From Sipunculus nudus (lineage: Eukaryota; Annelida; Sipuncula; Golfingiida; Sipunculidae), in contig CM049317.1 in assembly GCA_026874595.1 (NCBI GenBank), positions 73,187,118 to 73,251,117 on the forward strand: DNA of 64,000 nucleotides, given 5' to 3'. Numbering within the stretch: position 1 is the first letter of the stretch; each line of letters starts with the position of its first letter. Made by a program: the position numbers and the translations under genes. The notes below the pieces were generated by a model, which did no database searches, was not told the origin of the DNA, and was given only the letters and a program-made list of their open reading frames with translations. Shown here piece by piece: positions 2,282-53,545 of the stretch.

Positions 2282-2424
2282 CTCATAGACCGTGATATAA
2301 TTGTAATATCTACAGTGTTCCAAACAGTCCCTTATGGAATAAATACTGATTCTGCAGTTTTCATTCATTTCGTATTCTGCCTTGTAGCAGCCTTGGTAGT
2401 ACATTGGTGTTTGATCATAGGAAG
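2282..2424 (-). CDS. Copy A exon 3: WSC-like domain N-half
   Basis: A 143-nt phase 1-0 exon with acceptor CTTGTCAG and donor GAG|GTAAGT. It encodes YYQGCYKA near its start, then spaced cysteines (NENC, RDC, EHC) and a Tyr-rich end. The Y-x-GCY start and Cys spacing match WSC domains (a Cys-rich module found in yeast stress sensors and animal extracellular proteins). Homologous to 6845-6996 and 44358-44503, which have the same phases. The next exon is not visible in the window. Confidence 0.7.
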
Positions 2425-3622
2425 CTGACAAGAAACCACTAAACGTTGACCATCACCGCACGTGTTCACAATCGATGTATTTTGAACAGTCGGTATGTGG
2501 TTAGTAATATAATAATTAAATAATCAATTAATAATGATATAAATAATGATAATGTAACTGAAACGACTGAAATTTCTCTTGAATATGACAAATACGTAAG
2601 ACCCGTATCCTCACATGGGATAATCCAGTTCCAGTAGAGCGGTCCTGTTGTCGCCCCGAGCCATACCGACGTCATCCCGGCATTTTTAAGTAAATCGGTA
2701 ATGGCTTGATGGATGACATCATTGGCATCTCTTGCCAATCTTCCCTGTCTGCTTTGACAAGCATCCTTGGCTTCTTGCCAGTGGTATTGTCCGTTATAAA
2801 GACGATACAACATGCCTTCAGCTATTAAATACACAAGAAATCTTCTATCTCAACTAAATCCTCAACAACATTATAATGAACATTTATATGTTAGGCCATC
2901 TCAGATTCAAGGAAATATTTTAGATGCTATGCTATGCATGCTAGATTTTACCGTGAAATTGGGTTTGCGGGTACTGGTGCAAATAATTGCCTCTCCCAGG
3001 AGGATATGTGTCGATCCCCATTCGTGTGCTTTTTTTTTGTTTTTGCGTTTTTGCTAATAGCATAATGCGCGCAAGTTTGAACGGAGTCTGATGAAGGTTT
3101 CAGACCATTCAGGATCATTATTAGGACATATTCCAAATAATATACACCGGCAAATATGGGCCGGATAAATGAATGCAAACATGATTTTGGGAGCATTGCA
3201 GTGGCCTACATTCCTTAGATGGAGATTTCTCTTAGACATTTAGCCAGCGTTTTCACCACAAGGACCGCTCCCCGACCGAGGATTGAATGGATATTAGTCA
3301 TGGGCGGCAGGCAAATGTTAAATGAAAATCCTTCTAGGGCGTATTATGGTTGCCTGGGTTTTATGCTCCCGGGAACCGGAGAAAGCCTACAATAATGAAC
3401 AGGCTCATACAACCAGGAAGGCAAAGTAAATAGTTAGATAGGACCGACATTGTCGATGATATTATGCTTAAACACCAAGATCCCGTCCCCCCCCCCCCCG
3501 CATATTTACATGTGTGTGAATTATCCTGATAGATATTCCTTACCTTTTACGCAGTTCTCTCGGCAACCTTCAAAGGCCCACGCCATCGATAAAAAATATA
3601 TATGTAGTATTATATAAAGCAT
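2282..3622 (-). CDS. Copy A: CTLD/WSC receptor gene, 5' part (join of three exons)
   Basis: Minus-strand gene built from exons 3622-3544, 2821-2615 and 2424-2282. Phases join cleanly (start-1, 1-1, 1-0) and every exon is open. It encodes a secretory signal, the N-terminal half of a C-type lectin-like domain and the N-terminal half of a WSC-like domain. The paralogous copy C then continues with the WSC C-half, the CTLD C-half, a second CTLD, stalk, membrane helix and tail. No such exons can be found between 2281 and 1, so the gene either continues past the window edge or is truncated. It is head-to-head with copy B, with about 2.9 kb between them. The likely role is a cell-surface or secreted recognition protein; this is inferred from domains only. 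Confidence 0.7.
2615..2821 (-). CDS. Copy A exon 2: CTLD1 N-terminal half
   Basis: A 207-nt symmetrical phase 1-1 exon, acceptor TTTAATAG at 2822-2823 and donor T|GTGAGG after 2615. The protein has the CTLD hallmarks in order: YRLYNGQYHWQEAKDAC (helix 1 start with Trp and Cys), GRLARD, a second helix, then VWLGATTGPLYWNW, which matches the WIGL and W-x-W core strands. Exactly the same length as the copy C exon at 42889-43095. Intact, with Trp at the position where copy C carries a stop. Confidence 0.8.
3544..3622 (-). CDS. Copy A exon 1: signal peptide
   Basis: The ATG at 3622-3620 opens a frame beginning MLYIILHIYFLSMAWA, a hydrophobic segment ending in a good signal-peptidase site (AWA). 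About ten further residues (FEGCRENCVK) follow before the donor AAAAG|GTAAGG at 3544. The donor is phase 1, matching the phase-1 acceptor of the CTLD exon 0.7 kb away. A second in-frame ATG at 3586 would give a much poorer signal, so the upstream one is preferred. Confidence 0.6.
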
Positions 3623-6526: not shown

Positions 6527-6716
6527 TTGGTGGTCTAACATATCGCCTGTATACCATTGATACAAACTGGGCAAACGCCCAGGAAGCCTGTTATCGTTAT
6601 CAAGGACGGCTGGCTAGGGACACAGTGCCATTCGGGATCTACTACAGGATAATAATGTGACTTCAGCGTGGTTTGGGGCCAAACAGCACCACTCTATTGG
6701 AACTGGATTGAATCAT
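6527..6716 (+). pseudogene. Copy B CTLD1 N-half exon, frameshifted
   Basis: Acceptor TTTATACAG, then GGLTYRLY, NWANAQEAC and QGRLARD in frame. After that the frame shifts and hits TGA; the core strands reappear in other frames (TSAWFGA, then PLYWNWI). The exon is 190 nt against 207 in copies A and C, a net loss of 17 nt. The donor T|GTAGGG is in the position of the copy A donor. Confidence 0.75.
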
Positions 6717-6771
6717 GTAGGGCTGAATATATGATAGTTTCTTTATTTGTTCTGTATTGTTATTAAATTTG

Positions 6772-6773
<2 letters not shown>

Positions 6774-6830
<57 letters not shown>
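6774..6830. repeat. (TA)n microsatellite in copy B intron
   Basis: Long pure TA run between the CTLD1 and WSC exons. Confidence 0.95.
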
Positions 6831-6833
<3 letters not shown>

Positions 6834-6844
6834 ATGCTCTTCAG

Positions 6845-6996
6845 CTCTACAAGGTCAATATGACCACAAACCGATGTCTTACCAAGGATGCTACCGGGCA
6901 GCGGAGGAAACGAGGGAAAACTGCAGACAGGGTGTCTATAACATGGGGACGTGCTTTGGTCACTGTATGAATTACACTTATGCTTCTATTTATAAG
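6845..6996 (+). pseudogene. Copy B WSC N-half exon (open)
   Basis: A 152-nt phase 1-0 exon, acceptor GCTCTTCAG and donor AAG|GTATGA. Encodes SYQGCYRAAEE, then ENC, GTC and GHC. Open and well preserved, unlike its neighbours. Confidence 0.7.
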
Positions 6997-7104
6997 GTAT
7001 GAATACTACTTATGAATAATCGTTTGCGGAAGTTTAAGCTAAATAAGTCGCAAATATACCAAATGTCTGGATAGGCATGTATTTTAATAATAATGTTTAA
7101 ATAG

Positions 7105-7260
7105 GACACAACAATCTAAAGATGCTGTTGTGGACATTATTTTGGAAGAGCTCGGCCAGCAAAACCTATAAATGCAAACCTTGTAGTGGGATACCGCGAT
7201 GTGCAGAAAGTTCAGCTATTCATGCTGTATATACGGTAGCTATAAGACGAGAGGAGTTAC
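7105..7260 (+). pseudogene. Copy B WSC C-half exon, broken
   Basis: After acceptor AAATAG the phase-0 frame reads four codons, then TAA, where copy C has the Tyr before ECCCGN. The CCCG core follows (RCCCGHYFG). Then the frame shifts, with CSG and SAIHAVYTVA in another frame matching CPGG and NAFEAIYSRV of copy C. Donor C|GTAAGT. Confidence 0.7.
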
Positions 7261-7394
7261 GTAAGTAAAGATCTAGCAATATTAAGCTCTATCAGGATAT
7301 TTATTTACCTGATACCTTTATACCGTGAAACGTTTACAAGTATATTTTTGATGTTCTAATTGAACATATTTTATCTTATGATTATCTTATGATG

Positions 7395-7481
7395 CTCGAT
7401 GGCGGGACAGCTACCCCGACGGCCTGGACGAAGCTTGCACATCGGCCGTGTTCACACGAACTGCGCCACTGTGCATAGTCG
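7395..7481 (+). pseudogene. Copy B CTLD1 C-half remnant
   Basis: Encodes WRDSYPDGLDEAC and later PLCIV, matching WENHYPDRLQDD and AVCIT of copy C, but about twenty residues shorter. The donor G|GTAAGG is kept, but no AG lies at the expected acceptor (the sequence there is GATGCTCGATGG), so the exon could not be spliced normally. Confidence 0.55.
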
Positions 7482-8213: not shown

Positions 8214-8483
8214 ATGATATTGGTCAACACGGTCTCTGTTCAGATGGGGAATTTCCAACTGCTGAGTCAGGGAAGTGTTTTGTTGACTTGACCCCGCCTA
8301 CGACGTGGGACGAGGGCATCAAGCGCTGTGCGTCACGCAAATCCAGACAGAAAAGCACATCTGGTGCCTCTGTAAAAACGGCAGATACGCGTGAAAGTCG
8401 AACAAGTTATTCGAAAAATATTTAATGAAAAAGTATAGAATTGTGGGTGTTTTGGTCAAGTAGAAGATGGACTTGGAGCACAG
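8214..8483 (+). pseudogene. Copy B CTLD2 N-half exon, frameshifted
   Basis: Acceptor AATGCAG. The frame gives ESGKCFVD, TTWDEGIKRC (Trp and Cys of CTLD helix 1), then runs to TAA about 70 codons in. The end of the exon in another frame reads VFWSSRRWTWST, equal to FGTSRRWMWKA of copy C. Donor G|GTGAGC. 270 nt against 273 in copy C. Confidence 0.7.
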
Positions 8484-9208
8484 GTGAGCGACAATTTATT
8501 AATGTAGTACATGAGCACACTAACTGAAATTTAAACTGTCATATCATTGGTAGTGGGTTGGTTTTTATTCGAATAATAAAGGGATTTCTTAGTTATGTTA
8601 TATAGCTTCAGTAACTTGTAGCAGCTAGAGGAGTATGGAAAATTATCTGATTTAATGCGTATCGTGCAATGAAAACAGAAAGTAAAACTCATATATTAAG
8701 TATCTGTGACAGATGATTTCTGGAGATGTTTTAAAACAATTAAGACTTCAACACTTGAGACTTGAGATTTCACATGAAAGATTAAGAACAGATTGATTCT
8801 ATATTTGAATAAATCTTATTAATCGTAAGCTCTACCAAATATATTCAGATATCAAATGAATTGTTAAATACCTACATTCAATATATTGTAGTCTTTGCCG
8901 TTCTACGTCTATCAAAAATCAGATCAGAGTTACCTTCTAGTTCTACAGACTTTAAGATTTAATATATTATTCATACAGTTCTTTAATTTGTAACTTATTA
9001 TTACAATTGTTAGTGGAATTCTTGTTCTGTTACAGGGCGAGTTACAATTACCGAAATACCGAAAAAAGCATCAACCCACACCTCCAAACATGCCCACAAT
9101 TTTCTTAATAATTTCCGGTTAATATTGTCTATGCTAATTTCCGTATAATTTTCCTTCTGTTTTCATGTATGTTTCATTAGAATATAAATACATCCACTCC
9201 ATTTGCAG

Positions 9209-9368
9209 GACAAACATCCTTGTGAAAAAGAAGACGTGTCAGCAAACTACTGGTCCTTGTCCAACGAAAGTGTTCCTATACACAACCAGTGTATAACCAT
9301 CCATGATGACGGCACATGGACCGCTTTATCTTGTAATCAGAAATTCGGGGCATACATATGTGAATCAA
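9209..9368 (+). pseudogene. Copy B CTLD2 C-half exon
   Basis: Acceptor TTTGCAG, donor A|GTATGT. Encodes KEDVSANYW, HNQCITI, GTWTALSC and GAYICES, the classical W..C...YIC end of a CTLD. The exon is open, but in phase 0, whereas the preceding exon ends in phase 1, so a one-base indel separates them. It has a normal GT donor where copy C has GC. Confidence 0.75.
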
Positions 9369-10057: not shown

Positions 10058-11203
10058 GTATTTTTCTTTTTGTTTGGCTCCTCTATAAAATAATCACAAA
10101 CACTCTCGTTAATTCTATGAAACATCTTGACATGGTCGAACAGTAGTTAAGATGAACGAATGAACGCAGAATCCTGAACTAAACTCTTAAGGCCTCAAGG
10201 GCAGTTTGCCGAAATTTATTCATAGATACCGTGTATGATTTCCTTTGAATAGGTGTCATTAATATATAAGCAATATTAAGCATCATCACTTTAAAAGCGA
10301 AATGTTTATCCTTAGTGACAATTGTAACATGGAATGACTAATGGAAATGCAACTGTTAACATTTTCCATAAAAAGAGGTATCACCTCAAGTTTGACCTCA
10401 AGGTTCACCTCAACGCTTCATGTCACCTAACCAGGTGGGGCTTTATACATGTAACTTTACATATATATTTTTCTTTACAAAGAATTCAAGTTGTATTTAA
10501 CAATGGCACGTATTGGAAGCAATCATGCCACAAAAGAAGCATTTTATTCGGGGAGTGGAAATTTCATTGAGATACGTTTTAATCTCGCAAAACAGTTCAC
10601 AATCCGTTTAATATTTAAAAAGATATACAAAATACCATAAGAGGCATACTGTTTAAAAAACGACATGCTACCATGTACTGACTGTGTTACACTTGTTACT
10701 TCAGTAATAACATGTTTCACGGTTCCTTAAATACATATGTAAATAGTCACATTTTCATAGCGACAATGTTTTATATTTGTAAAGAACATTTTCCAAACAA
10801 TATACGCCAGGCATCCAGTTGATTGTGATGACCGGTTTTAGAAAATAAACACAGAAAGAATCGGTTAAGGAACAATGATAAGCCTCTTCACATAGTTTTG
10901 AAGTGTTATTCTTGTTTTTATTATTTGGAAATATACTTGTACAAAAACGTGATGATTTAAATCACTTGGCTGCTGTCATTCAAAACAAGGCACATATCCA
11001 GGTTTTTGCCGATATTTTTCATATTTCATAATTTTATGTTGAATTTTATTAAACGAAAACATGGAAATACGGGCAGTAATACTCAGAGTAACGGGCAGTA
11101 ACGAAAGCGTGGTGCCTCCTGGTAACGTAACATTATCAAAACAAAATGCAGTTGCAATCGTCTCATAATAACAGAACATATATCGGCTGTCGTCCATTTC
11201 CAG
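10058..11203. other. Copy B intron, nothing recognised
   Basis: AT-rich intronic sequence before the membrane exon. Short frames at 10334-10570 and on the opposite strand lack coding signals. Confidence 0.4.
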
Positions 11204-11303
11204 GGAACCATGTCGGAGCCTCCAAGCATATGAAGGCGGTCATTTGGGGATCTGCTGGGGCCTTCGCAATGCTGATCCTAGTCACGCTGCTTGTGCTTGT
11301 GTG
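11204..11303 (+). pseudogene. Copy B transmembrane exon (open)
   Basis: A 100-nt phase 1-2 exon, identical in length and phases to the copy C exon 47150-47249. Encodes a short linker, then WGSAGAFAMLILVTLLVLVW, a single membrane helix. Acceptor TTTCCAG, donor TG|GTAAAA. Confidence 0.7.
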
Positions 11304-11497
11304 GTAAAAAATGCAACATAATTGACATACACTAGTATATTCTTCTTTTAAATGCCATTATTTACAAACTATTAGACCCGTTTAGGGATTCATCATCACG
11401 CATCACTGGGCGAAAGCTTAGTCACACATATGTAAACAAAAAGTTTAAATAAAAGGATACTAAATTAGACAGTTGACATGTTGTTTAATTGTTATAG

Positions 11498-12652
11498 GGT
11501 TTTCTAAAATTCCGCCGACGTCCTGTAGATAATGACAAGCAGCTCAGTCGGATGAAAAGGGAAAGAACAACAAGAGGGACAGAGAAGGAAGGAAATAGAA
11601 CACCGAAAGCCCCACATTACGAGCCGCACGTGTACGACCCTTTAGATGAAGATGTTCAAACAAAACCTGTGCAAGGGGGGAAACTGCCGCCGCCAAACCT
11701 GCGCGCCTCCTGGCGGGTGACAAGGCCTATGAGGACGTGACTGATTTAAACGACAACAGCGCGTATAAAAGCGCAGGTGATATACACAGTAACGTCCCAT
11801 GTATTATAAAGGACCATATGAGTAAAGGTCGTGCAACTGGACCAGTCATTACGTATTCCATTGTGGCTAACAGGAACGGGATGGATAAATGTGTTTCTCG
11901 TATAGGTGGTAAACCTATCGGTAAGTCAGCTATAGGTGTAAAAAAACTTGTAACTTCTGGACGCAAAACTTTCACACCCACCCGGCGGGTCTGTCCGGAA
12001 TACGATATAGCCGACGATGTTATTCCGGAGGGGATCGAGGGAAGGGAGGCAAATGGCAAAAAAAAAAAAACTGCTGAACAAATTACCTACGTCATACCTA
12101 GTAAAGTTAAGAAAATCCGTGGTACGCTTTCCCAAGACACTTCCTTCCACGATACAAATGCTCTTCCTGATAAAGACAAGAAAGCCTTAAAGCACTTTTC
12201 AAGGAAAGTGAACAATGAAGAAGACTACCAGAGGACTCAATTCATCCAAGCAACGTAATATATGCTCAGCCTAATAAAGACAAAAGGCACCAAAGAATAT
12301 TTCAGAGGAATTGATAAAACAGAGACATTATCCAAACCAGTCGACCTTACCAAGTCACACTATATATGCGCAACCTAATAAGGATAACAAGATAGCCAAG
12401 CATGTTTCGGTTGAACTGTCCAGACAAGGAGGAAACCAAAGCAAGTCACCACGTCCAGAGCATGTGATATATGCCCAGGCCAATAAAGATAAGAAAACAT
12501 CCAAGAATGTGTCTGGGAATATCGTCGGTCATGATCTCCCACATGATTCTTCATATTGTGTTATTGGCAATGACGAACGGCATGAACTATCGTTGATGGA
12601 AGAAGCGGATGGAGAAATTATCAAGATGGACAATGAAATATATAGCAGTTAG
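11498..12652 (+). pseudogene. Copy B cytoplasmic tail exon, frameshifted
   Basis: After acceptor GTTATAG the tail is spread over several frames. One has FLKFRRRPVDNDKQLSRMKR and EPHVYDPLDEDVQT up to 11740. The next has LLAGDKAYEDVTDL and VPCIIKDH to 12258. Another holds the end at 12311-12652. Motifs match copy C: HLYDTLDE, RPYEDVNDL, VPSIIKDH, and the last residues NEIYSS/NEIYNS. A YAQP-NKDK repeat is present about four times (starts near 12150, 12255, 12358, 12472) against once in copy C. An ITIM-like SSYCVI lies at 12548-12565. Confidence 0.75.
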
Positions 12653-34088: not shown

Positions 34089-37000
34089 TTTTTTTTCTGG
34101 TAAATCCGCAAATTGCTAGCAAATTGCTACTTTGACAACCAGGCCCCTCTCTGCTGGCCGATCAGGTCGCAAATTGCTACTTTGACAACAGGCCCCTTCT
34201 ATCTTGGGCGCCCAGGTCGCAAATTGCTAGCAATTTCCCGATACCCCCCGGCAAATTTTTTTTCTGGTAAATCCGCAAATTGCTAGCAAATTGCTTCTTT
34301 GACAGCCAGGCCCCCTCTCTCCTAGGCGCCCATATCGCAAATTGCTAGCAATTTGCGGATACCCCCCGGCCAATTTTTTTTTTTCTGGAAATTTCGCAAA
34401 TTGCTAGCAAATTGCTACTTTGACAGCCAGGCCCCTTCTCTTCTGGTCGCTCAGGTCGCAAATTGCTAGCAATTTGCCGATACCCCCCGGCCAATTTTAT
34501 TTTCTGGTAAATCTGCAAATTGCTAGCAAATTGCTACTTTGACAGCCAGGCCCCTCTCAACTGGGCGCCCAGGTCGCAAATTGCTAGCAATTTGCGGATA
34601 ACCCCCGGCCAATTTTTTTCTTCTGGTAAATCCACAAATTGCTAGCAAATTGCTACTTTGACAACCAGGCCCCCTCTGTCCTCGTCGCTCAGGTCGCAAT
34701 TTCTAGCAATTTGCCGAACCCCCCCCCCCCCCCAGCCCAATTTTTTTTTTCTGGTAAATCCGCAAATTGCTAGCAAATTGCTACTTTTACAACCAGTCCC
34801 CCTCTCTCCTGGGCGCCCAGGTTGCAAAATGCTAACAATTTGCGGATACCCCCCCGGCCAATTTTTCTTCTGGCAAATTGCTAACAAATTGCTACTTTGA
34901 AAGCCAGGCCCCTTCTCTCCTGGTCGCTCAGGTCGCAAATTGCTAGGAATTTGCGGATACCCCGCGGCCAATTTTTTGTTCTGGTAAATCCGCAAATTGC
35001 TAGCAAATTGCTACTTTGACAACCAGGCCCCTTCTCTCCTGGGCGTCCAGGTTAAAAATTGCAAGCAATTTGCCGATACCCCCCGGCCAATTTTTTTTTT
35101 TTCTGGAAATCCGCAAATTGCTAGCAAATTGCTACTTTGACAGCAAGGCCCCCTCTCTCCTGGGCGCCCAGGTCGCAAATTGCTAGCAATTTGCGGATAC
35201 CCCCCGACAAATTTGTTTTTTCTGTTAAATCCGCAAATTGCTAGCAAATTGCTACTTTGACAACCAGGCCCCTTCTCCTGGTCGCTCAGGTCGCCAATTT
35301 TTTTTTCTGGTAAATCCGCAAATTGCTAGCAAATTGCTACTTTGACAGCCAGGCCCCTCTTTCCTGGTCGCCCAGGTCGCAAATTGCTAGCAATTTGCGG
35401 ATACCCCCCGACCAATTTTTTTTTTCTGTTAAATCCTCAAATTGCTAGCAAATTGCTACTTTGACAACCAGGCCCCTTCTCCTGGTCGCTCAGGTCGCCA
35501 ATTTTTTTTTCTGGTAAATCCGCAAATTGCTGGCAAATTGCTACTTTGACAGCCAGACCCCCTCTTTCCTGGTCGCCCAGGTCGCAAATTGCTAGCAATT
35601 TGCGGATACCCCCCGACCAATTTTTTTTTTTCTGTTAAATCCTCAAATTGCTAGCAAACTGCTACTTTGACAACCAGGCCTCTTCTCCTGGTCGCTCAGG
35701 TCGCCAATTTTTTTTTTCTGGTAAATCCGCAAATTGCTAGCAAATTGCTACTTTGACAACCAGGCCCCCTCTCTCCTGGTCGCTCAGGTCGCAAATTGCT
35801 AGCAATTTGCGGATACCCCCGACCAATTTTTTTTTCTGTTAAATCCGCAAATTGCTAGCAAATTGCTACTTTGACAACCAGGCCCCCTCTCTCCTGGTCG
35901 CTCAGGTCGCAAATTGCTAGCAATTTGCGGATACCCCCTGGCCAATTTTTTTTTTCTGGTAAATCAGCAAATTGCTAGCAAATTGCTACTTTGACAACGA
36001 GACCCCTTCTCTCCTTGTCTCTCAGGTCGCAAATTGCTAGCAATTTGCGGATACCCCCTGGCCATTTTTTTTTTTTCTGGAAAATCCGCAAATTGCTAGC
36101 AAATTGCTACTTTGACAACCAGGCCCCCTCTCTCATGGGCGCCCAGGTCGCAAATTGCTAGCAATTTGCCGATACCCCCCGGCCATTTTTTTTTTTTCTG
36201 GAAAATCCGCAAATTGCTAGCAAATTGCTACTTTGACAACCAGACCCCCGCTCTCATGGGCGCCCAGATCGCAAATTGCTAGCAATTTGCCGATACCCCC
36301 CGGCCAATTTTTTTTTTTTTCTGGAAAATCCGCAAATTGCTAGCAAATTACTACTTTGACAACCAGGCCCCCTCTATCATGGGCGCCCAGGTCGCAAATT
36401 GCTAGCAATTTGCCGATACCCCCAGGCCAATTTTTTTTTTTTCTTGTAAATCCGCAAATTGTTAGCAAATTGCTACTTTGACAACCAGACCCCTTCTCCT
36501 GGTCGCTCAGGTCGCCAATTTTTTTTTCTGGTAAATCCGCAAATTGCTACTTTGACAGCCGGGCCCCCTCTTTCCTAGTCGCCCAGGTCGCAAATTGCTA
36601 GCAATTTGCGGATACCCCCCGACCAATTTTTTTTTTCTGGAAAATCCGCAAATTGCTAGCAAATTGCTACTTTGACAACCAGGCCCCTTCTCTTCTGGTC
36701 ACTCAGGTCGCAAATTGCTAGCAATTTGCGGATACCCCCCGGCCAATTTTTTTTTTCTGGTAAATCTGCAAATTACTAGCAAATTGCTACTTTGACAGCC
36801 AGGCCCCTCTCAACTGGGCGCCCAGGTCGCAAATTGCTAGCAATTTGCGGATAACCCCCGGCCAATTTTTTTCTTCTGGTAAATCCGCAAATTGCTAGCA
36901 AATTGCTACTTTGACAACCAGGCCCCCTCTGTCCTCGTCGCTCAGGTCGCAATTTCTAGCAATTTGCCGAACCCCCCCCCCCCCCCCCCCCCGCCCAGCC

Positions 37001-40000
37001 CAATTTTTTTTTTCTGGTAAATCCGCAAATTGCTAGCAAATTGCTACTTTTACAACCAGGCCCCCTCTCTCCTGGGCGCCCAGGTTGCAAAATGCTAACA
37101 ATTTGCGGATACCCCCCGGCCAATTTTTCTTCTGGCAAATTGCTAACAAATTGCTACTTTGAAAGCCAGGCCCCTTCTCTCCTGGTCGCTCAGGTCGCAA
37201 ATTGCTAGGAATTTGCGGATACCCCGCGGCCAATTTTTTGTTCTGGTAAATCCGCAAATTGCTAGCAAATTGCTACTTTGACAACCAGGCCCCTTCTCTC
37301 CTGGGCGTCCAGGTTAAAAATTGCAAGCAATTTGCCGATACCCCCCAGACAATTTTTTTTTTTCTGGAAATCCGCAAATTGCTAGCAAATTGCTACTTTG
37401 ACAACCAGGCCCCCTCTCTCCTGGGCGCCCAGGTCGCAAATTGCTAGCAATTTGCCGATACCCCCCGACCAATTTGTTTTTTCTGTTAAATCCGCAAATT
37501 GCTAGCAAATTGCTACTTTGACAACCAGGCCCCTTCTCCTGGTCGCTCACGTCGCCAATTTTTTTTTCTGGTAAATCCGCAAATTGCTAGCAAATTGCTA
37601 CTTTGACAGCCAGGCCCCCTCTTTCCTGGTCGCCCAGGTCGCAAATTGCTAGCAATTTGCGGATACCCCCCGACCAATTTTTTTTTCTGTTAAATCCTCA
37701 AATTGCTAGCAAATTGCTACTTTGACAACCAGGCCCCTTCTCCTGGTCGCTCACGTCGCCAATTTTTTTTTCTGGTAAATCCGCAAATTGCTAGCAAATT
37801 GCAACTTTGACAACCAGGCCCCCTCTCTCCTTGTCGCTCAGGTCGCAAATTGCTAGCAATTTGCGGATACCCCCGACCAATTTTTTTTTCTGTTAAATCC
37901 GCAAATAGCTAGCAAATTGCTACTTTGACAACCAGGCCCCCTCTCTCCTGGGCGCCCAGGTCACACATTGCTAGCCATTTGCCGATACCCCCCGGCCATT
38001 TTTTTTTTTTCTGGAAAATCCGCAAATTGCTAGCAAATTGCTACTTTGACAACCAGGCCCCCGCTCTCATGGGCGCCCAGATCGCAAATTGCTAGCAATT
38101 TGCCGATACCCCCCGGCCAATTTTTTTTTTCTGGAAAATCCGCAAATTGCTAGCAAATTACTACTTTGACAACCAGGCCCCCTCTCTCATGGGCGCCCAG
38201 GTCGCAAATTGCTAGCAATTTGCCGATACCCCCAGGCCAATTTTTTTTTTCTGGTAAATCCGCAAATTGCTAGCAAATTGCTACTTTGACAACCAGGCCC
38301 CTTCTCCTGGTCGCTCAGGTCGCCAATTTTTTTTCTGGTAAATTCGCAAATTGCTACTTTGACAGCCAGGCCCACTCTTTCCTGGTCGCCCAGGTCGCAA
38401 ATTGCTAGCAATTTGCGGATACCCCCCGACCAATTTTTTTTTTCTGGAAAATCCGCAAATTGCTAGCAAATTGCTACTTTGACAACGAGACCCCTTCTCT
38501 CCTTGTCGCTCAGGTCGCAAATTGCTAGCAATTTGCGGATACCCCCTGGCCAATTTTTTTTTTCTGGAAAATCCGCAAATTGCTAGCAAATTGCTACTTT
38601 GACAACCAGGCCACCTCTCTCATGGGCGCCCAGGTCACAAATTGCTAGCCATTTGCCGATACCCCCCGGCCAATTTTTTTTTATTCTGAAAAATCCGCAA
38701 ATTGCTAGCAAATTGCTACTTTGACAACCAGGCCCCCTCTCTCATGGGCGCCCAGGTCGCAAATTGCTAGCAACTTGCCGATACCCCCCGGCCAATTTTT
38801 TTTTTTCTGGAAAATCCGCAAATTGCTAGCAAATTACTACTTTGACAACCAGGCCCCCTCTCTCATTGCGCCCAGGTCGCAAATTGCTAGCAATTTGCCG
38901 ATACCCCCAGGCCAATTTTTTTTTTTTCTGGTAAATCCGCAAATTGCTAGCAAATTGCTACTTTGACAACCAGGCCCCTTCTCCTGGTCGCTCAGGTCGC
39001 CAATTTTTTTTCTGGTAAATCCGCAAATTGCTACTTTGACAGCCAGGCCCCCTCTTTCCTGGTCGCCCAGGTCGCAAATTGCTAGCAATTTGCGGATACC
39101 CCCCGACCAATTTTTTTTTTCTGGTAAATCCACAAATTGCTAGCAAATTGCTACTTTGACAACAAGGCCCCCTCTCTCATGGGCGCCCAGGTCGCAAATT
39201 GCTAGCAACTTGCCGATACCCCCAGGCCAATTTTTGTTTTTTTTTCTGGTAAATCCGCAAATTTTTCTAGCAAATTGCTACTTTGACAACCAGGCCCCTT
39301 CTCCTGGTCGCTCAGGTCGCCAATTTTTTTTTTCTGGTAAATCCGCAAAAGCTAGCAAATTGCTACTTTGACAGCCAGGCCCCCTCTTTCCTAGTCGCCC
39401 AGGTCGCAAATTGCTAGCAATTTGCGGATACCCCCCGACCAATTTTTTTTTCTGTTAAATCCGCAAATTGCTACTTTGACAACCAGTCCCCTTCTCCTGG
39501 TCGCTCAGGTCGCCAATTTTTTTTTTCTGGTAAATCCGCAAATTGCTAGCAAATTGCTACTTTGACAACCAGACCCCTTCTCTCCTTGTCGCTCAGGTCG
39601 CAAATTGCTAGCAACTTGCGGATACCCCCCGGCCAATTTTTTTTTTTTCTGGAAATTCCGCAAATTGCTAGCAAATTGCTAGCAAATTGCAGCTTTGACA
39701 ACCAGGCCCCCTCTCTCATGGGCGCCCAGGTCGCAAATTGCTAGCCATTTGCCGATACCCCCCCGCCAATATTTTTTTTTTCTGGAAAATCCGCAAATTG
39801 CTAGCAAATTGCTACTTTGACAACCAGGCCCCCTCTCTCATTGGCGTCCAGGTCGCAAATTGCTAGCAATTTGCCGATACCCCCCGGCCAATTTTTTTTT
39901 TTTCTGGAAAATCCGCAAATTGCTAGCAAATTGCTACTTTGACAACCAGGCCCCCTCTCTCATGGGCGCCCAGGTTAAAAATTGCTAGCAATTTGCCGAT

Positions 40001-40590
40001 ACCCCCAGGCCAATTTTTTTTCTAGTAAATCCGCAAATTGCTAGCAAATTGCTACTTTGACAGCCAGGCCCCTTCTCTCCTTGTCGCTCAGGTCGCAAAT
40101 TGCTAGCAATTTGCCGATACCCCCAGGCCAATCAGGCCCCTTCTCTCCTTGTCGCTCAGGTCGCAAATTGCTAGCAATTGGCCGATACCCCCAGGCCAAT
40201 TTTTTTTCTAGTAAATCCGCAAATTGCTAGCAAATTGCTACTTTGACAGCCAGGCCCCTTCTCTCCTTGTCGCTCAGGTCGCAAATTGCTAGCAAGTTGC
40301 CGATACCCCCCGGTCATTTTTTTCCCTGGTAAATCCGCAAATTGCTAGCAAATTGCCACTTTGACAGGCAGGCCCCTCTTTCCTGGGCGCCCAGGTCGCA
40401 AATTGCTAGCAATTTGCGGATATTCCCCTGCCAATTTTTTTTTTTCTGGTAAATCCGCAATTTGCTAGCAAATTGCTACTTTGACAACCAGGCCCCTTCT
40501 CTCCTGGTCTCCCAGTTCGCAAATTGCTAGCAATTTGCTGGCACCTCCCGCCATTTTTTTCTCAGGGAAACGTCTCCGCGGAAATCCAAA
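34089..40590. repeat. Satellite B main array, unit about 119 bp
   Basis: Roughly fifty head-to-tail units. Each unit has CGCAAATTGCTAGCAAATTG, CTACTTTGACAACCAGGCCC, CTCCTGGTCGCTCAGGTCG or a GGGCGCCCAGG variant, AATTGCTAGCAATTTGC, GGATACCCCCCGGCCAATT, a T-run and CTGGTAAATC. Each palindromic GCTAGC box occurs twice per unit. Variants with a shortened unit (CTCCTGGTCGCTCAGGTCGCCAATTTT) recur at intervals, giving higher-order structure. The many frames here (AICGFTRKKKL type) are by-products. Confidence 0.95.
34430..35470. repeat. Higher-order block copied at 36685-37735
   Basis: A series of unit variants, including the rare GTCCTCGTCGCTCAGG and GGTTAAAAATTGCAAGC forms, recurs in the same order about 2.25 to 2.26 kb later. 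The copies differ by few substitutions and by the length of a C-run (about 34718 against 36972). Confidence 0.8.
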
Positions 40591-42888: not shown

Positions 42889-43095
42889 TTGGTGGCCTCC
42901 GGTACTGCCTTGTTAATCAAAAAGAAAACTGGACAGATGCTGAGCAAACATGTCAGAGTAAAAATTCAAATCTCGCCAGAGACACAACGATAAGCGTGCA
43001 CGAGGCACTTGTTGACCTCATAAAACACGCAGGGGTTTCCCAGGCTTGAATTGGAGCAACAACGGGACCACTCTATTGGAATTGGATAATACCAG
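42889..43095 (+). CDS. Copy C CTLD1 N-half exon with in-frame TGA
   Basis: A 207-nt phase 1-1 exon; acceptor TATGTTACAG, donor G|GTAAAT. Encodes GGLRYCLVNQKENWTDAEQT, then C, SNLARD, a helix, and SQA-stop-IGATTGPLYWNWIIP. The stop (TGA, 43047-43049) replaces the Trp of the core strand seen in copy A (VWLGATTG) and copy B (AWFGA). A single G to A change explains it. Confidence 0.75.
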
Positions 43096-46000
43096 GTAAA
43101 TCAATGTTATGGAAATTAACATTAGGTTGATCATGATAATATTTCTACATTAGTACACTGTAATCGGCAACGACCGTTTTCCGTTTTTATATGAATTTAA
43201 AGGATTTTAAAAACCATTCAGCTCTATTAAAAACTAATTATATAAAAGGTGACTAATACTCCATTGAAATTCAACTCTCTCTGTTTCTTCTCACCCCCTA
43301 CTCAGTGGCTACAAAAAAGCTGTCTTTTCATATGTAAATAAAATGGAAAGGAATTTGTATAACAATAAGCGCCATACGACATGGTGTATGCTATTAACAA
43401 GATCCGATTTTCAAGTGAGCTGTGCCAATAGTTATAAAGCATTCAAGTAGAGAATTCGAGGTTTTACCAAACTTTATTGCTTGTGAAAGCAAGAACATGG
43501 GAAACTTTGTAAAAAATCGTAAATATGGTTGTTTAGTCTTACATGCCAGAATCCTGTTATTATTAGTGAAAAAATATTCCCCTTTTGTAAATAGTTTGCA
43601 CTTGCCACATCTCAAAATAGTCAGCGAGGATGACGGATACTTTATATAGGTCCTTGAAAAACATATGTGCTTGGTGAAAGTTAATGAATTACTTGAGTGA
43701 ATGATATTTATAAAAGAGTACTTCAAACTAAGGTTTAAAAGTCTTACATGCCAAAATCCTTTTATTATTAGTGACGAATATTCCCCTTCTTGAAAATAGT
43801 TTGCACTTGCCACATCACAGTTTGTCATGTCAAACATAAATATTCGTAAACAATAACTAGCTTTTGCCCATGCAGACCGTGCTCATCGGCAGGGTCTTGT
43901 GTTACTTCCGTAGCCTGTGGTTTTTTTTCTCCCAGCCAGACGGTCGAGTTTCTTTACTTCTGTTTTCTCCCTCCTCTCCTCTCACATTTGTACCAGTACG
44001 ACACTTCTGTTCAGATACTATGGGCCGACATGAAGGATGGGTATCTCTTTTGTCAGAGATATATATTACATTTTTTATATACAAAAAAATATTATCAAAA
44101 TTCACCTAAAGGTTAAGTTACGGAAACATGATCGACCAGATAATATTCCAAATCAGTATAATACTAGACGCAAGATGCATGAACGTATCAGTATAGTACC
44201 AGGGGGAAAGCTACAAGTACTCAGCAATACATCATTGGCTTTTGCCAGGAGCAATACTTAAATACTTGCGTTATATAACATCATATGGAATGAAACTTTG
44301 AATCTGTAAGAATGTCCGTGTATAAATGCTTTATCGTTACTATGCTATTTGTTTCAGAGTGTTCCTCGCATGTGCATGTGTACTATCAAGGATGTTTCAA
44401 AAAGCACCAGGAAAATTGGAATGGCTGCAAATACATGGGTTCTACTAATTTTGGGTCGTGCATTGGTAACTGTGGTGATAACAAATTTTATTCATTTTAC
44501 AAGGTAACTATAAAAAAACATCAAATACTTAAGGTACAATTCAATGATTTTACGTTTTTGATTTGATAAATACCTGACTTTTAACTTGTGCTTACATTTT
44601 TGTTAGCGTTGAAATAAAGGTTTGTCTTATTCCAAATTCAAAATAAACCATTAAAATATTTATTTAACAGAAAGGAAACAAGTACGAATGCTGTTGTGGA
44701 AATCAATTTGAAACCAGCAAAGCTGTATCAACAAAAGAATGTCCTGGCGGGAGTGGAACAAATGCTTTCGAAGCAATATACAGTAGAGTGGCTCATCCTT
44801 TAAATTATAGTACGTACATGTACATTCTATACATGTGTTATCCTATATTTCACTCGTAAATTGTCCCTAAATATATGTTCTTTTGTTGTAACTGGTACCG
44901 TGCAAGCGATTAATTACTGCATTTTCCTTTATATGTAGATGGTATATTTTGGGAAAACCACTATCCCGACAGACTTCAAGATGATTTCCATGAAAGCGAA
45001 TGTATAATTGGCAAAGCAAGCAATCAAAATACAAAAATTGAACATCAAGACTGCGCAGAGAAATTTAAGGCTGTCTGTATTACAAGTGAGTAGAGTGGTA
45101 TGATATTCACTTTTATTAACTTTATGAACTCCGACGTATAACTGTTTATTATTGTTGCACGGGAATTGGGAAACTCAGCGACGTCCTATCAGTTTAAAAG
45201 AGTTCTTTGACGAGCTGTTCAAACGACTGCTCGACTTCATGTGCTTGTATCCCGGACACATTTGAATATTAATAAAAGAAATTTATTTCATTTTCTATCC
45301 AGTTTTTTTTTTTTTTTTCATTACTATTTTGCCACCGAACTATTTTTTTCTTTAGTTTACTTATTCTAAAATTCTTCTTATTATAAGTATTGGTTACTTT
45401 TCAATTTGAAAAATATTCTTTAAACGTAAATTTTTTTATCTACAACGAAGACCATAGGATTGTCAAATTGATTAACACTTTGAAATTCATGTTCAAATGA
45501 TATTTTAAATAGCTTATAATTAAACAAATATAAAAATGCAAAAGTAATGTTTTCAATTCAGAAAAGAATGGTGAATACAACAGGTGTTTGAATGATGAAT
45601 ATGCAATATCGGAAACCGGACAATGTTTGAACAAATCTGAGAAGTTGCTTACCTGGGAGGAAGCCGTTCTGTACTGCAAAGGACTGGACACAAGAGGTGT
45701 CTACTCCTTGACGTCCTTTTATAATCCTGAGATACAAAGGGGAGTGCGAGAGGCAATAAAACCATCAATAAGCGATAAAGAAACACTCCGTTTCTGGACG
45801 TTCGGAACAAGTAGAAGATGGATGTGGAAAGCAAGTAAGCAAAAGAAAATGTCTATTTTACTTACATTCCTAATATATTTAGTTTCATGGCGTACCTTGG
45901 GTGTACCTTTGGAGACTGCGTTAGCTTCCTGTTTAGAAATCATTGTTGCAATACCAATCGGAAGGGCTGCAGAAAATTAGATGTGCATATGTTCACTGGT

Positions 46001-48409
46001 ACTAAATACAAAAAGGTAGGAAACGAGTACAGAGGAATCTTCGGTTCGCACGAAAAATGTTTATAAAATTTAATTTTAGAGAATACTTACTAAGGTTCAC
46101 TGACAGCCTATCAAAATAAGCAGGGTTTTACTTTTAAACATAGGCATTATTTCCATAATATGACTGACATGGATATGCCTTTATTGTAAAGCAATATCAA
46201 CCATAACAACCAGTACAGGAGTTCCTCATTTTTGCAGAGAAGGAAGACATTACCAATAGTCATTGGTTTTCTGATGAAGATAGTATCCCTTTCGAAAATA
46301 AATGTCTAACTGTTGTATCTGGTGGGAAGTGGAAAGCTGAGCCCTGTGCCAAAAATGTATCATACATTTGTGAGACAGGCATGTATTAGTTGATGTGATC
46401 ACTCCTTGAATGCAATTAAGTTTATAAACTGATAATTTCTTGGTCTAAGTCGATGCAGAGAGTAGTATATTGAAAACAGAAAAAGCAGCTGTAATGCAAA
46501 TGGTCACATTTTGGCCAGGTTATTTATGTGTATTCATAATCTGAGAAGTAACCAAACAGTTTAGAAACACGGGATTTTTCACTTTGAAATGCTCCTGTAA
46601 CGTTCGTAACTTTAAAAAAAAGAAGATTAAATACCTGTGCATTATTAGTGTTAAACCTGTGCCTGTTAGATATTGCATTTTACAGAAACAGAAAAGTAAG
46701 ATGTTTCAAACGTGAAATGTCGTATCAATGAATATATTAATTATAGTGTGCCATGGGGAATATGAGAAAAGGAAGTACCGTAGAACCATGCATACACAAA
46801 AATAAGAGGTTAAAGGGAACTAGGGGTTACTTTTAGTTATTTTACGGTTCATTTTTATTCGTTGCACAATCAAATGTACGCAATTAATGCTTTTTTATCC
46901 AAGGAGCCAGTCCAACAGGATCCCTTTTTCAAAGTACGACGCCATACGTAAATGACTCATCGCAAAGCGAGCCATGGACGACCAATGATCGTGCCAGTAA
47001 GCCGATCAGTCTCACTGCTCAGCCGTCAGGTACTTTGCATTGTAAAGCATTTAATTAATATCCAAGATTATCTGTCATTTCATGGATTGCATTTTGAAAA
47101 GTTAATTTAAAAGATAAAAGCAACATTAATATCATTCCATTATTTTAAGAAGACCCTCCGAGATCGTCGGGAAACATAGGAGCCGTTGCCGGGGGCGCTG
47201 CCGGTGCATTACTCTTGATGGTCGCCATCATCCTTTGCTTTATTCTTTGGTGAGTATTATATTTATAATATGTACATATTACCTAATTATGGGGAAGATT
47301 TCTATAAATGTACCGTTGTTTGTTCAAACGTGTATTCAAATTAGGATTATCAAGCGATGAACTATCCCTAAAGCCAACAGGCTCTGTAAGATAAGGTTGC
47401 ATAGGCGCATGGACCCCATGGTAAGTCTTGACTTACTCCTCCCTAAATCTTCATAAACATATTCTCAGCTAGTCCACCCAATAAGATTTTTAGTTCACCG
47501 GAGAACTACGAGGTGTGTCAGAAAAATAACAGGACTGATGTCACAATATATTTCAGTGCCAAACAACAAGCTACATACTTTTCCGTCCTTCTCTGTCACG
47601 AATCTGGGCACACCTGGAAGAATTCTTCTGAGATGCCCCAGCGATGGCATGAATTTGGCTATAATCATTGATGTTGTGATCTTATGAAAAAATATTTATT
47701 TAGGAATCTTGAACGATGGTTAGAATGACGTCCTGAGTGCTCAAAAACATGCCGTTTTCCCATTGACCCAAAAAACAGGATACAGTGACCTTATTTAGGG
47801 TTTCAAAGGATATTACAGGGGCGTTCTGTGTATGAAGTGAGAAGTTTTATATCTAAAAGATACGATTTGTGTCCTGCCAACGAAATGACGGCCTGGCGAA
47901 CAACGCAGAAAGCGTGGTCGCTATAGCTCAGCTGACCTAGAGTCAGCCGAGTTAAAAAATGAAAATGACACAAATGTACATAAACACAACAAAGACCTGC
48001 ACTACCTCGGCTCCATATATATAGTAATATATAACAGGTGACGAATGGGTAATTGCTCTCCGCAAGCGAGCGTTAACGTATTGTAGGCGATATTCACAAA
48101 TTTATCTATTTAAATGTAATTAGGTAAAATTAGACAGTCTAAAAATACTAGTAAAATGCATTAAAAAATGTAGTTGGCACAAATTTCTTTGATTAACTAC
48201 GTTTCACGACAACACATTTACGTACACGTGAGAAAATTCACAAATTGCTATAATTTGATTAAATAGAAGTAAATTGCATGAAACAGATACGCAACTCTAT
48301 TCAGCTCACGAGACTAATCAGATTGGAGAAACCGTTATGAGAATCGGCTTGAATCAACATTTTTTACCAGAGCTGTTGCAAAAGTTCCGTTTTTTTAATA
48401 TACACACAT

Positions 48410-48467
<58 letters not shown>

Positions 48468-49381
48468 AGAGAGAGATTATCAATGTATCCAAATATTTAA
48501 TTTGAAATTACATAGAATATCCTAAATAATTTCTGTATGCATAATATATTTACACATTGGTAATTTTCCTTGTTTTCAGGTGGTTTAAATTCAAAAGAAG
48601 GACAAACAAAAGGAACAATCAACTTTGTTCAATGGTAGAAATAGAAAAAGTAAAGAATGTTCCTGGTTTTTATACTGAGCCTCATTTGTACGACACTTTG
48701 GATGAGAATGTGGAAACTACACGTGGACCAAGAACGGAGAACTCGCAAGCGAAACCACCACGCCTCCTGGCGGACGACAGGCCGTACGAGGACGTGAACG
48801 ATCTGCCGCAGTTCGCGTCACATTTCGGTGGTTGCCATGACAACAACGCATATGAACGCACAGAGGATACAGTCAGCAACGTGCCTAGTATTATAAAGGA
48901 CCATATCAATCCAGATCGAATGACCAGATCAGGTCTCGCACATTCGGTCATGGACTTGGCTGATAGGGATGCTGGGAAAAAAGGTGTTCAATCAAGAATC
49001 AACGTCAGTGTTAAAACTCAAGTAAAACCAAGCATAGGCAGAAAGCCAACAGCCACTGCAGTAAGAGGCGGGTCCCAAACTGAAGATATAGACCCAGTAA
49101 TCGAAACGGCCGATAATGTCCGAGAGACGTTAAAATCATTACAGGGAAGAAATATAAGAGATACAAAGGACGCCAGCCATGATACATACGCTGTGGCGAA
49201 TAAAGACAAGAAAACACAGAGGAATATTTCCGAGGGAAGGGTCATTGACCCAGCGCGCCCAAACTTGGATGTACATCAGGAACATTCATCTACCTACTTT
49301 GTTCTTGGCAGCGACGGACCACAAGAAATGGATGAGGATGCTGAAAGCATCATGGTGAAAAATGAAATATATAACAGTTAA
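42889..49381 (+). CDS. Copy C: CTLD-WSC-CTLD transmembrane receptor gene
   Basis: Exons: 42889-43095, 44358-44503, 44671-44809, 44939-45085, 45562-45834, 46238-46378, 46904-47029, 47150-47249 and 48580-49381, with a likely signal exon at 16911-16998. All phases join (1-1, 1-0, 0-1, 1-1, 1-1, 1-1, 1-1, 1-2, 2-end). Domain order: CTLD1 N-half, WSC-like domain, CTLD1 C-half, CTLD2, Ser/Thr stalk, one membrane helix, then a tail of about 265 residues with tyrosine motifs. No EPN, QPD or WND calcium motif is seen, so classical sugar binding is doubtful. A TGA at 43047 interrupts CTLD1, and the intron after 46378 has a GC donor. The gene is either a young pseudogene, a null allele or an assembly error at one base. 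Confidence 0.8.
43536..43820. repeat. Direct repeat in copy C intron, period about 205 bp
   Basis: GTCTTACATGCCA(G/A)AATCCT, TTATTATTAGTGA, ATATTCCCCTT and ATAGTTTGCACTTGCCACAT occur at about 43536 and 43741. The minus-strand frame 43394-43837 runs through this repeat and is not a gene. Confidence 0.8.
44358..44503 (+). CDS. Copy C WSC N-half exon
   Basis: A 146-nt phase 1-0 exon; acceptor TTTGTTTCAG, donor AAG|GTAACT. Encodes VYYQGCFKKHQENWNGCKY, then GSC, GNC and KFYSFYK. The Y-x-GC-F start and four later cysteines match the copy A and copy B exons. Confidence 0.8.
44671..44809 (+). CDS. Copy C WSC C-half exon
   Basis: A 139-nt phase 0-1 exon; acceptor ATTTAACAG, donor A|GTACGT. Encodes KGNKYECCCGNQFE, then KECPGGSGTNAFEAIYSRV. 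The CxCGN and CxGG...YS pattern is the second half of a WSC domain. Confidence 0.8.
44939..45085 (+). CDS. Copy C CTLD1 C-half exon
   Basis: A 147-nt phase 1-1 exon; acceptor TATATGTAG, donor A|GTGAGT. Encodes GIFWENHYPDRLQDDFHESE, then CIIG, and ends HQDCAEKFKAVCIT. W..YPD, C, C and C are the long-loop and closing cysteines of a CTLD, which here follow the WSC exons rather than the CTLD N-half directly. Confidence 0.75.
45562..45834 (+). CDS. Copy C CTLD2 N-half exon
   Basis: A 273-nt phase 1-1 exon; acceptor TTTCAATTCAG, donor A|GTAAGC. Encodes RCLNDEYAISETGQCLNKSE, LLTWEEAVLYCKG, GVYSLTSF, IQRGVREAI, and ends FGTSRRWMWKA. The helix with W-EA-x-x-C is the standard CTLD helix 1 pattern. Open throughout. 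Confidence 0.8.
46238..46378 (+). CDS. Copy C CTLD2 C-half exon
   Basis: A 141-nt phase 1-1 exon; acceptor ATTTTTGCAG. Encodes NSHWFSDEDSIPFENKCLTV, GGKWKAEPC and VSYICET. The C...W..C...YIC order is a classical CTLD end, with KWKAEP in place of a WND calcium site. The donor reads CAG|GCATGT (46379). Confidence 0.8.
46904..47029 (+). CDS. Copy C stalk exon
   Basis: A 126-nt phase 1-1 exon; acceptor TTATCCAAG, donor G|GTACTT. Encodes a Ser/Thr/Pro-rich stretch (SPTGSLFQSTTPYVNDSSQS, then ISLTAQPS), suitable for O-glycosylation. It aligns at its start with 9923-10057 of copy B. Confidence 0.7.
47150..47249 (+). CDS. Copy C transmembrane exon
   Basis: A 100-nt phase 1-2 exon; acceptor TTATTTTAAG, donor TG|GTGAGT. 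Encodes EDPPRSSGN, then the helix GAVAGGAAGALLLMVAIILC followed by FILW. The Gly/Ala-rich first half resembles many type I receptor helices. Confidence 0.8.
47490..47945. mobile_element. Decayed mariner-like fragment plus dispersed repeat end
   Basis: ACTACGAGGTGTGTCAGAAA at about 47508 resembles the outer end of some mariner elements. The right edge (47925-47945) carries GCTATAGCTCAGCTGACC, the same dispersed end as at 19169, 20168 and 31480. No transposase frame remains. Lies in the last intron of copy C. Confidence 0.35.
48404..48474. repeat. (CA)n(TA)n(GA)n compound microsatellite
   Basis: CACA run, long TA run, then GAGAGA, about 0.1 kb before the tail exon. Confidence 0.9.
48580..49381 (+). 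CDS. Copy C cytoplasmic tail exon
   Basis: Acceptor TTGTTTTCAG, phase 2 entry, open to TAA at 49379-49381. Starts WFKFKRRTNKR (basic stop-transfer anchor). Tyrosine motifs in order: HLYDTLDE, RPYEDVNDL, NAYERTED, DTYAVANKDKK, SSTYFVLG and the terminal NEIYNS. S-T-Y-F-V-L (49289-49306) fits the ITIM consensus. Rich in Asp, Lys and Asn and probably disordered. Likely role: signalling through phosphotyrosine adaptors or phosphatases (inference). Confidence 0.8.
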
Positions 49382-52345: not shown

Positions 52346-52879
52346 AAGTACATTTAATAGAGAGGGCAATCAAGCAAGCAGGAATATTAAAGACTGTAGC
52401 AGTCTTAGAAATTTTGAGTGTTTTTTTTATATTCAAAAAATTGATTTAAAATAGACATGTTTTTATACTTTTTAAAGTAAAACAATTGGTCATTAGCAGC
52501 TTTTTATTAGAAACTACTGTACAACATTCAGTTTGATTCAGCATAACCATGACCCATCTTTGGGTGCATTGTGGACCCAAGTTTACATGTATAGGCTGCT
52601 GAGTAGGTAAGATATTTATTTATCAAATGTGATGCAAGAAGTAGGCTGTGCAAAGATAATTTTGTTAAATTTTTCAAGGCAGTTTTACTGAAACCTTGAA
52701 TTTGAAGATGAATAAGGAAGACATAAGTAATTTGTGATCAGAATGATTAAACTAGCAAATTCAAAATCTGTAATTATGTGCAATATCATATTTGTGTAGA
52801 TTAAAATTTGCAGCATGTAAAAAAATTACCTCATGGGCACATCATAAACAAAATGGTAATTTATGCATCTTATCAATGC

Positions 52880-53545
52880 TGAATGTGTGCACATGGGTGG
52901 TGATGGTGGAATAGGTACCAGAGTAACAAGGCCGGATGTGTGAATGGAGTCCAGGGTACCAATGCTTGATGTGCGGTGCTTGTGGATTTTGGTCAAGGGT
53001 ACCAAGGCTGGGTGTGTGTACATGGGGGTTGGTGGAACTGGGTTGAGAGTACCAAGTCTGGATGTGTGAATACATGACTGGTGGTGAACTTAGGTCCAGG
53101 GTACGAAGGCTGGATGAATGTACATGGGTGTTGGTGGAATGGGGTTCAGGGTACCAAGAATGGATGTGTGCACATTTGTAGTGTTGGGGGAATAGGGTCC
53201 AGGGTACCATTGCTGGATGCATGCATATGGGTGGTGCTTGTGGAATAGGGTTCAGGATACCAAGTCTGGATGGTTGAAAACATGGCTGGTGGTGGTACCA
53301 AGGCTGGTTGTGTACACACGGTGTTGATGGAACTGGGTCTAGGGTATCAAGGTTGGATGTGTGTACATGGGTGTTGGTGGAATGGAGTCCAGGGACCAAG
53401 GCTGGATGTATGTACATGGGTGTTGGTGGTGGGACTGCATTGGATACCAAGGCTGGGTGGGTAAATATTGGTGGTGGGAGGGTTTCCAGGGTACCAAGGT
53501 TGGATGTGGGTATATTGGTGGTAATGGTGGTATAGTGGTTCCAGT
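52880..53545. repeat. Minisatellite, unit about 50 bp
   Basis: About thirteen imperfect units of the form GGTACCAAGGCTGGATGTGT, ACATGGGTGTTGGTGGAA, (T/G)GGGTCCAG; GTACC occurs near 52957, 52999, 53049, 53151 and 53204. Lies in the intron of the element-borne gene. Reading frames through it on both strands are artefacts. Confidence 0.85.

Follow-up and report, generated by a model that had tools for sequence, protein, structure and literature searches.

Can one extracellular domain be carried within the long loop of another? The question is raised by a 64-kb stretch of the genome of Sipunculus nudus (the window, i.e. the 64,000 nucleotides that were analysed, part of contig C12), in which two exons for a WSC-like domain break the coding sequence of a C-type lectin domain (CTLD) where the long loop begins, directly behind the WxW motif. 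The ectodomain encoded here has two CTLDs, and it is the first of them (CTLD1) that is interrupted. We think that the genes concerned probably belong to a large family of type I transmembrane receptors in animals in which the long loop of CTLD1 holds a WSC domain derived from a shuffled phase 1-1 unit. This reading is drawn from sequence, the genome searched comprising 1,426,538,692 bases in 153 contigs. The molluscan haemocyanin domain PF14830 had no match in it, a result of no weight on the animal group since 14 control genomes gave none either.

The complete case is a forward-strand gene at 42889-49381 (copy C), in which the two halves of CTLD1 (CTLD1-N and CTLD1-C) flank the two exons of the insert (WSC-N and WSC-C). 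Here and elsewhere, exon ends and splice sites were chosen by eye among candidates, with a small number of residues omitted or uncertain where exons are joined. CTLD1-N (42889..43095, phase 1 at both ends) runs up to the WxW motif; in its WIG motif a TGA, the only in-frame stop, stands where Trp is expected. The exon matches positions 1-56 of the 107 of the Lectin_C profile with 27.2 bits if this codon is read as W, and with 19.8 bits if it is read as X. WSC-N (44358..44503; GCF ... C ... CxxxC) is entered in phase 1 and left in phase 0, WSC-C (44671..44809; CCCG ... C ... Y) is entered in phase 0 and left in phase 1, and CTLD1-C (44939..45085, phase 1-1) brings W..YPD, the cysteines C2 and C3 and a closing VC. 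The insert lies between phase-1 introns, with the C-half of CTLD1 coming next and then the insert-free second domain, CTLD2, in two exons (CTLD2-N, 45562..45834, with a boundary set by eye and no WSC at its intron; CTLD2-C, 46238..46378, 20.2 bits over positions 69-107 of Lectin_C). A Ser/Thr-rich stalk exon (46904..47029, phase 1-1), the single hydrophobic transmembrane exon (47150..47249) and a cytoplasmic tail exon with several Tyr motifs (48580..49381; YDTL, YEDV, TYAV), open to its stop, complete the gene, whose last frame is 278 amino acids long. The preliminary description of this DNA had ended the feature at 45085; the span 42889..45085 does contain the nested part, but the gene continues to 49381 with CTLD2, the stalk, the transmembrane exon and the tail. 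As a side observation, CTLD2-C of copy C ends on a GC donor where copy B (see below) has GT (46378-46390); unspliced, the frame would stop four residues further on (TGMY, then stop) and yield a secreted form.

Two other copies are found in the window. Copy B, on the same strand, has the first four exons in the same order but decayed (6527..7466): CTLD1-N has two frame shifts, WSC-C has one as well as a TAA, and of CTLD1-C mere remnants are left. Its CTLD2 halves follow at 8222..9367 (the N-half is broken), then a transmembrane exon and a tail broken by frame shifts (11131..12652), with a hydrophobic segment at 11218-11301 resembling the transmembrane segment of copy C (a weak match, E 0.075). 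Copy A, on the reverse strand, consists of a candidate exon for the signal peptide (3544..3622, by eye; phase 1 at its end), an intact CTLD1-N (2615..2821) and WSC-N (2282..2424); the remainder (WSC-C, CTLD1-C, CTLD2-N and CTLD2-C) lies just outside the window, in L041, one of the loci that we fetched from the genome (all denoted L0xx), with WSC-C at 3149-3262 and CTLD1-C at 3412-3552 of that locus, counted on its reverse strand. The exon order given earlier for copies B and C, the phase-1 outer boundaries (around an internal intron in phase 0) and the two steps ascribed to copy A are therefore all borne out. Copies B and C and L039 have a transmembrane exon followed by a tail containing Tyr motifs, and in L039 both resemble those of copy C.

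Do the exons on either side of the insert make up a single CTLD, as the preliminary description supposed when it took the downstream exon for the missing C-half? We compared the scores of the N-half alone and of the joined halves against Lectin_C (PF00059, 107 positions, cut-off 22.6 bits). Copy A, whose N-half scores 25.3 bits (positions 2-56), rises to 32.5 bits with its own C-half, and to 35.2 bits over 2-105 with that of copy C; with nine shuffled C-halves it scores 24.2-28.7 bits (a gain of 3.4 at most), and none of these alignments goes beyond position 89. This control was built on the N-half of copy A, and its range is applied to the other joins. The native joins of L039 (25.9 to 33.9 bits), L045 (23.6 to 35.4), L044 (19.9 to 26.7), L066 (22.1 to 35.0) and above all L071 (16.2 to 40.1, the clearest gain) behave likewise, and copy C, with X at its stop, goes from 19.8 to 28.2 bits over 1-105. 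All eight native joins (A, L039, L044, L045, L029, L066, L070 and L071) extend to position 105-106 of the profile, with 21.6-40.1 bits, and seven of them exceed the cut-off. In copy C, CTLD1 has all four cysteines C1-C4; in an alignment of ten C-halves, C4 never varies and nine have C2 and C3, L022 being the one without them (it lacks C1 too). CTLD2 of copy C, joined without any insert, scores 35.3 bits over 3-107, and its WMW falls on the WHW of lithostathine (1lit) when the two are aligned. The intron following WxW comes after three codons and one base in CTLD1-N of copy C and after two codons and one base in CTLD2-N, in the same phase. These joins, together with the exon order, support the assignment of the downstream exon to the same CTLD.

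The arrangement recurs across the genome. With CTLD1-N of copy A as query we obtained at least 107 matches at E<=1 (150 of 154 candidates were scored), mostly clustered on C12, with others on C1, C2, C6, C7, C8, C9, C13 and C15-C17. Among the best 30 of these 107, taken as 3.2-kb loci, 22 have a WSC-N at E<=0.01 within 1.5 kb downstream of CTLD1-N. This count combines 21 of 29 found with a profile enlarged to include many of the very loci scanned, and copy C (L012), found with the first profile, made of five exons (A, B, C, L032 and L033). In L027 the WSC-N match is weak, and the enlarged profile detected no WSC-N within 1.5 kb in L017, L019, L026, L028, L034, L036 and L037; when L026 and L028 were reread at 8 kb (as L044 and L045), WSC exons were present, farther away. 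We then have 16 longer loci, a hand-picked and non-random set made of copies B and C and of 14 fetched loci (high-scoring copies, two copies in which the first 1.5 kb lacked WSC-N, and a single copy per contig for seven contigs). CTLD1-N, WSC-N, WSC-C and CTLD1-C follow one another in this order in 14 of the 16, namely B, C and 12 of the 14 fetched loci (L039-L045, L066, L067, L070, L071 and L072, on contigs C1, C2, C7, C12, C13 and C15). In this count copy B contributes only a remnant of the C-half, and four exons with absent or poor profile scores were identified by eye: WSC-C of L044, the C-half of L070, and both WSC-N and the C-half of L071. The first two steps are seen in L068 before its 5-kb sequence ends, and splice AG/GT sites compatible with phases 1, 1-0 and 0-1 are present at most junctions read. 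Such a recurrence of the same order is more than chance.

Is the insert really a WSC domain? Like WSC domains (PF01822; yeast Wsc1, 7PZ2; Kremen1, 5FWS), it has a GCY-type start, CxxxC, CxCG, late cysteines and a closing Y. Judged by eye, at least 16 of 23 members (including A, L039, L018, L033, L035 and L070) have all eight WSC-type cysteines in order, whereas one or more late cysteines are absent from copy C, L023, L029, L042, L071 and L072, L040 being uncertain (frame shift). In Wsc1 the disulfides are C27-C86, C49-C69, C53-C71 and C90-C98, and the strand topology is beta1-5-3-4-2 (PMC9024836); WSC-C of copy C lacks both cysteines matching C90 and C98. An additional cysteine in WSC-N and the middle one of CCC in WSC-C occur together in 21 of the 23 members, are both missing from two (L070, with CYC, and L071, with CRC) and are never found singly (counts uncorrected for kinship), a pattern to be expected if a fifth disulfide connected the parts encoded by the two exons. 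Another candidate bond, between an extra cysteine at the start of the WSC domain of copy C and the YC of CTLD1-N, was rejected: most other members possess YC or FC and yet lack that cysteine. At the profile level, an hhalign comparison of nine family members with yeast Wsc1 and five WSC domains from this genome gave a score of 30.9, with a probability of 73% (E 3e-5 for a one-entry library); the best scores of 100 full shuffles and of 100 shuffles with fixed Cys columns were 19.8 and 21.0, so that 0/100 reach it in either design. Fifteen native joined WSC regions were also scanned against PF01822 (cut-off 27.8 bits): copy A (18.8 bits, E 0.002, over 1-81 of 82), L029 (20.4 bits, E 6.1e-4) and L070 (20.0 bits, E 8.4e-4) match it at E values under 0.01, PF01822 being the sole family listed for each of the three, and L033 matches it more weakly, with 13.7 bits (E 0.073). 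The WSC-like identity proposed earlier thus holds in the profile comparison and the paired cysteines, but not at the Pfam cut-off, which none of the 15 attains; the insert is supported as a divergent WSC domain. In fungi and in Kremen, the ligands of WSC domains are carbohydrates or proteins (PMC9024836).

We also looked for signs of constraint, with dN/dS obtained from simple counts, without a likelihood test. Copy A and L039 share seven blocks of similar DNA, five on the six exons and two farther downstream, one of the blocks spanning WSC-C, the short intron and CTLD1-C. Over the six exons (328 codons) their dN/dS is 0.40, with 0.11 for CTLD1-N, 0.59 for WSC-N, 0.60 for WSC-C, 0.47 for CTLD1-C and 0.46 for each half of CTLD2. 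Among the older pairs of the window, synonymous sites are saturated in CTLD1-N (A/C, and A/B in part) and in CTLD2-C (B/C); CTLD1-N of B and C (in part) gives 0.35, and the WSC-N pairs 0.37-0.69.

A number of observations weigh against the reading of these genes as receptors with a WSC domain nested in CTLD1. The family has been sampled only in part, through the best 30 of 107 matches. Two of the eight native joins, L070 (26.6 to 30.0 bits) and L029 (21.2 to 21.6), gain no more than the shuffled controls. In copy C, exchanging halves between the two CTLDs gives 42.4 bits for CTLD1-N with CTLD2-C, vs 28.2 with its own C-half, and 18.6 bits for CTLD2-N with CTLD1-C, vs 35.3 for the native CTLD2. 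We take this to mean that CTLD1-C is a diverged C-half and that the gain in profile score does not by itself settle its partner, the pairing of the halves relying on exon order as well as on score. No WSC was found in the longer-locus reading of L069, and L072 has no phase-0 GT within 50 bases after WSC-N. Frame shifts or stops affect CTLD1 or WSC exons in six of the 16 longer loci: B (many), C (the single TGA), L040, L042, L043 and L072. PF01822 has no match in 11 of the 15 native copies (B, C, L018, L022, L023, L035, L039, L045, L066, L071 and L072), besides the failure of all 15 to attain its cut-off. The Ca2+-dependent sugar site is not conserved in copy C, where YPD stands in place of EPN/QPD and WND is absent. 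Finally, a dN/dS of about 0.6 in the WSC exons, from one pair and few codons, is a weak sign of constraint.

The likeliest alternative, which we still consider unlikely, is that the WSC exons form an optional cassette: most transcripts would lack it and encode an ordinary CTLD, while the nested form would be either splicing noise or a minor isoform. With phase 1 at both of its ends, the unit can be skipped without loss of frame, and CTLD2 provides an example of the plain form in the very same gene. However, exons that are not used are expected to decay, whereas both WSC exons persist, with their cysteines changing in pairs (21 both, 2 neither, 0 mixed), in diverged copies and on several contigs.

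It is more doubtful still that the insert is an unrelated Cys-rich module which happens to resemble a WSC domain. One could invoke the 11 copies without a PF01822 match, the weak Cys_knot matches obtained instead for copy C (E 0.056) and for one mixed string (E 0.013), and an earlier, smaller comparison (Wsc1 plus a Kremen stretch as template) whose score was reached by 1/100 full and 3/100 Cys-fixed shuffles. The same applies to the internal intron: the possibility that it is shared with other WSC genes of this genome was rejected, the corresponding exon starting several residues upstream in L005, L007 and L008 (by eye). On the other hand, three members match PF01822 under E 0.01 with no competing family, the larger profile comparison was reached by no shuffle in either design, and L070 combines CYCG with all eight WSC-type cysteines. 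For completeness, PF01822 has no match in the single exons of copies B and C, nor in any of four composite strings (one consensus-like and three mixed-copy), and searches of Protein Data Bank sequences with the insert gave no matches.

That the four exons are relics of decayed genes without a protein product is the least credible alternative, for in spite of disabling changes in B, C and 4 of the 14 fetched longer loci, A (L041), L039, L044, L045, L066, L070 and L071 are open across all four exons where read, and A vs L039 has a dN/dS of 0.40 over 328 codons.

Returning to receptors with a WSC domain within CTLD1, how could they have arisen, and how could they work? We propose that a phase 1-1 WSC unit was shuffled into an intron of CTLD1, because CTLD2 keeps an intron at the corresponding place. 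The protein would fold as a CTLD carrying a PAN/Apple-type WSC domain in its long loop; the first and last strands of the WSC fold lie side by side, as suits a domain inserted into a loop. The long loop is the usual ligand face of CTLDs; we infer that the WSC domain is displayed at this place, where it would supply or reshape the binding face, with the CTLD as scaffold. CTLD1 of copy C is itself unlikely to bind sugar, since YPD replaces EPN/QPD and WND is missing; these Ca2+ sugar-site motifs are not needed for the CTLD fold. Among ten C-halves, only those of L045 (QPD) and L044 (EPD) come near the canonical motif, unlike the window copies; these two loci are on C12, at 3.12 Mb and 45.34 Mb respectively. 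The tail, with its several Tyr motifs, may signal through phosphotyrosine adaptors. The clustering of the copies, six of 16 being broken, suggests a recognition family that duplicates and decays, a mode of evolution often seen in recognition receptors and one that the present family would follow. Transcripts skipping the WSC domain would stay in frame, the unit being symmetric, and isoforms with and without it are possible. Going one step further, and only tentatively, the CTLD could be a fixed holder and the WSC domain a changeable ligand-binding head, with diversification concentrated in the insert and splicing perhaps toggling the head; the concentration of diversification is suggested by dN/dS values of 0.11 in CTLD1-N vs about 0.6 in the WSC exons, in one pair.

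L071 (C15, 60.8 Mb) deserves a separate mention. It forms a diverged branch whose C-half (GTWNIYPC ... YYVC) looks canonical and whose WSC domain is without the extra Cys pair; it is possibly near the ancestral state.

How new is this architecture? Both CTLDs are Lectin_C-like, in that their joined halves fit the profile, with W..xP in the long loop and C2, C3 and C4, but CTLD1 differs from the usual CTLD in that some 95 residues of a second domain break it where its long loop begins, and from canonical ones by the absence of EPN/QPD and WND in copy C and in most of the ten C-halves. The insert, for its part, departs from known WSC domains by being nested in another domain, by the extra Cys pair in 21 of 23 members and by scores under the Pfam cut-off. 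A WSC domain and a CTLD do occur in one protein in polycystin-1 (PKD1) and in the sea urchin REJ proteins, as separate successive domains; the polycystin-1 family has in addition PKD repeats, a REJ module, PLAT and the polycystin membrane domains. Bivalve CTLD proteins also include unique architectures with a WSC domain (PMC10140915), and these may represent the same family. The words nested, inserted, intron and discontinuous are absent from the main text of that paper, to which the comparison is confined. The preliminary description, which did not recognise the architecture as a described one, stands insofar as literature titles and the openings of abstracts contained no WSC domain inside a CTLD, but the presence of a CTLD and a WSC domain in a single bivalve protein was already in print; from these sources, what seems new is the nesting, and what was known is the co-occurrence. 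Such nesting would tend to escape routine annotation, because in the two joined proteins scanned, those of copy A and L070, Lectin_C aligns with the N-half and runs into the insert (residues 12-95 in A) while the WSC domain stays below its cut-off. With a domain nested in the long loop, one of the largest lectin superfamilies of animals would gain a new means of constructing recognition receptors. It would also offer a before-and-after case of exon shuffling, given the insert-free CTLD2 in the same gene, with its intron at a nearly equal place.

Other features of the window are minor. Between 34000 and 40540 there is an array of GC-richer repeat units with recurring caaattgctagcaa and gccaggccccttctctcc (read at 40000-40540), which is also visible as repeated noise matches at 34202-39227 and as a GC content of up to 0.47 at 36001-40000. 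An open frame of 260 amino acids on the reverse strand (52842-53624) consists of degenerate repeats and is probably a minisatellite rather than a gene, and a frame of 192 amino acids at 54167-54745 contains a near-perfect internal duplication of about 80 residues.

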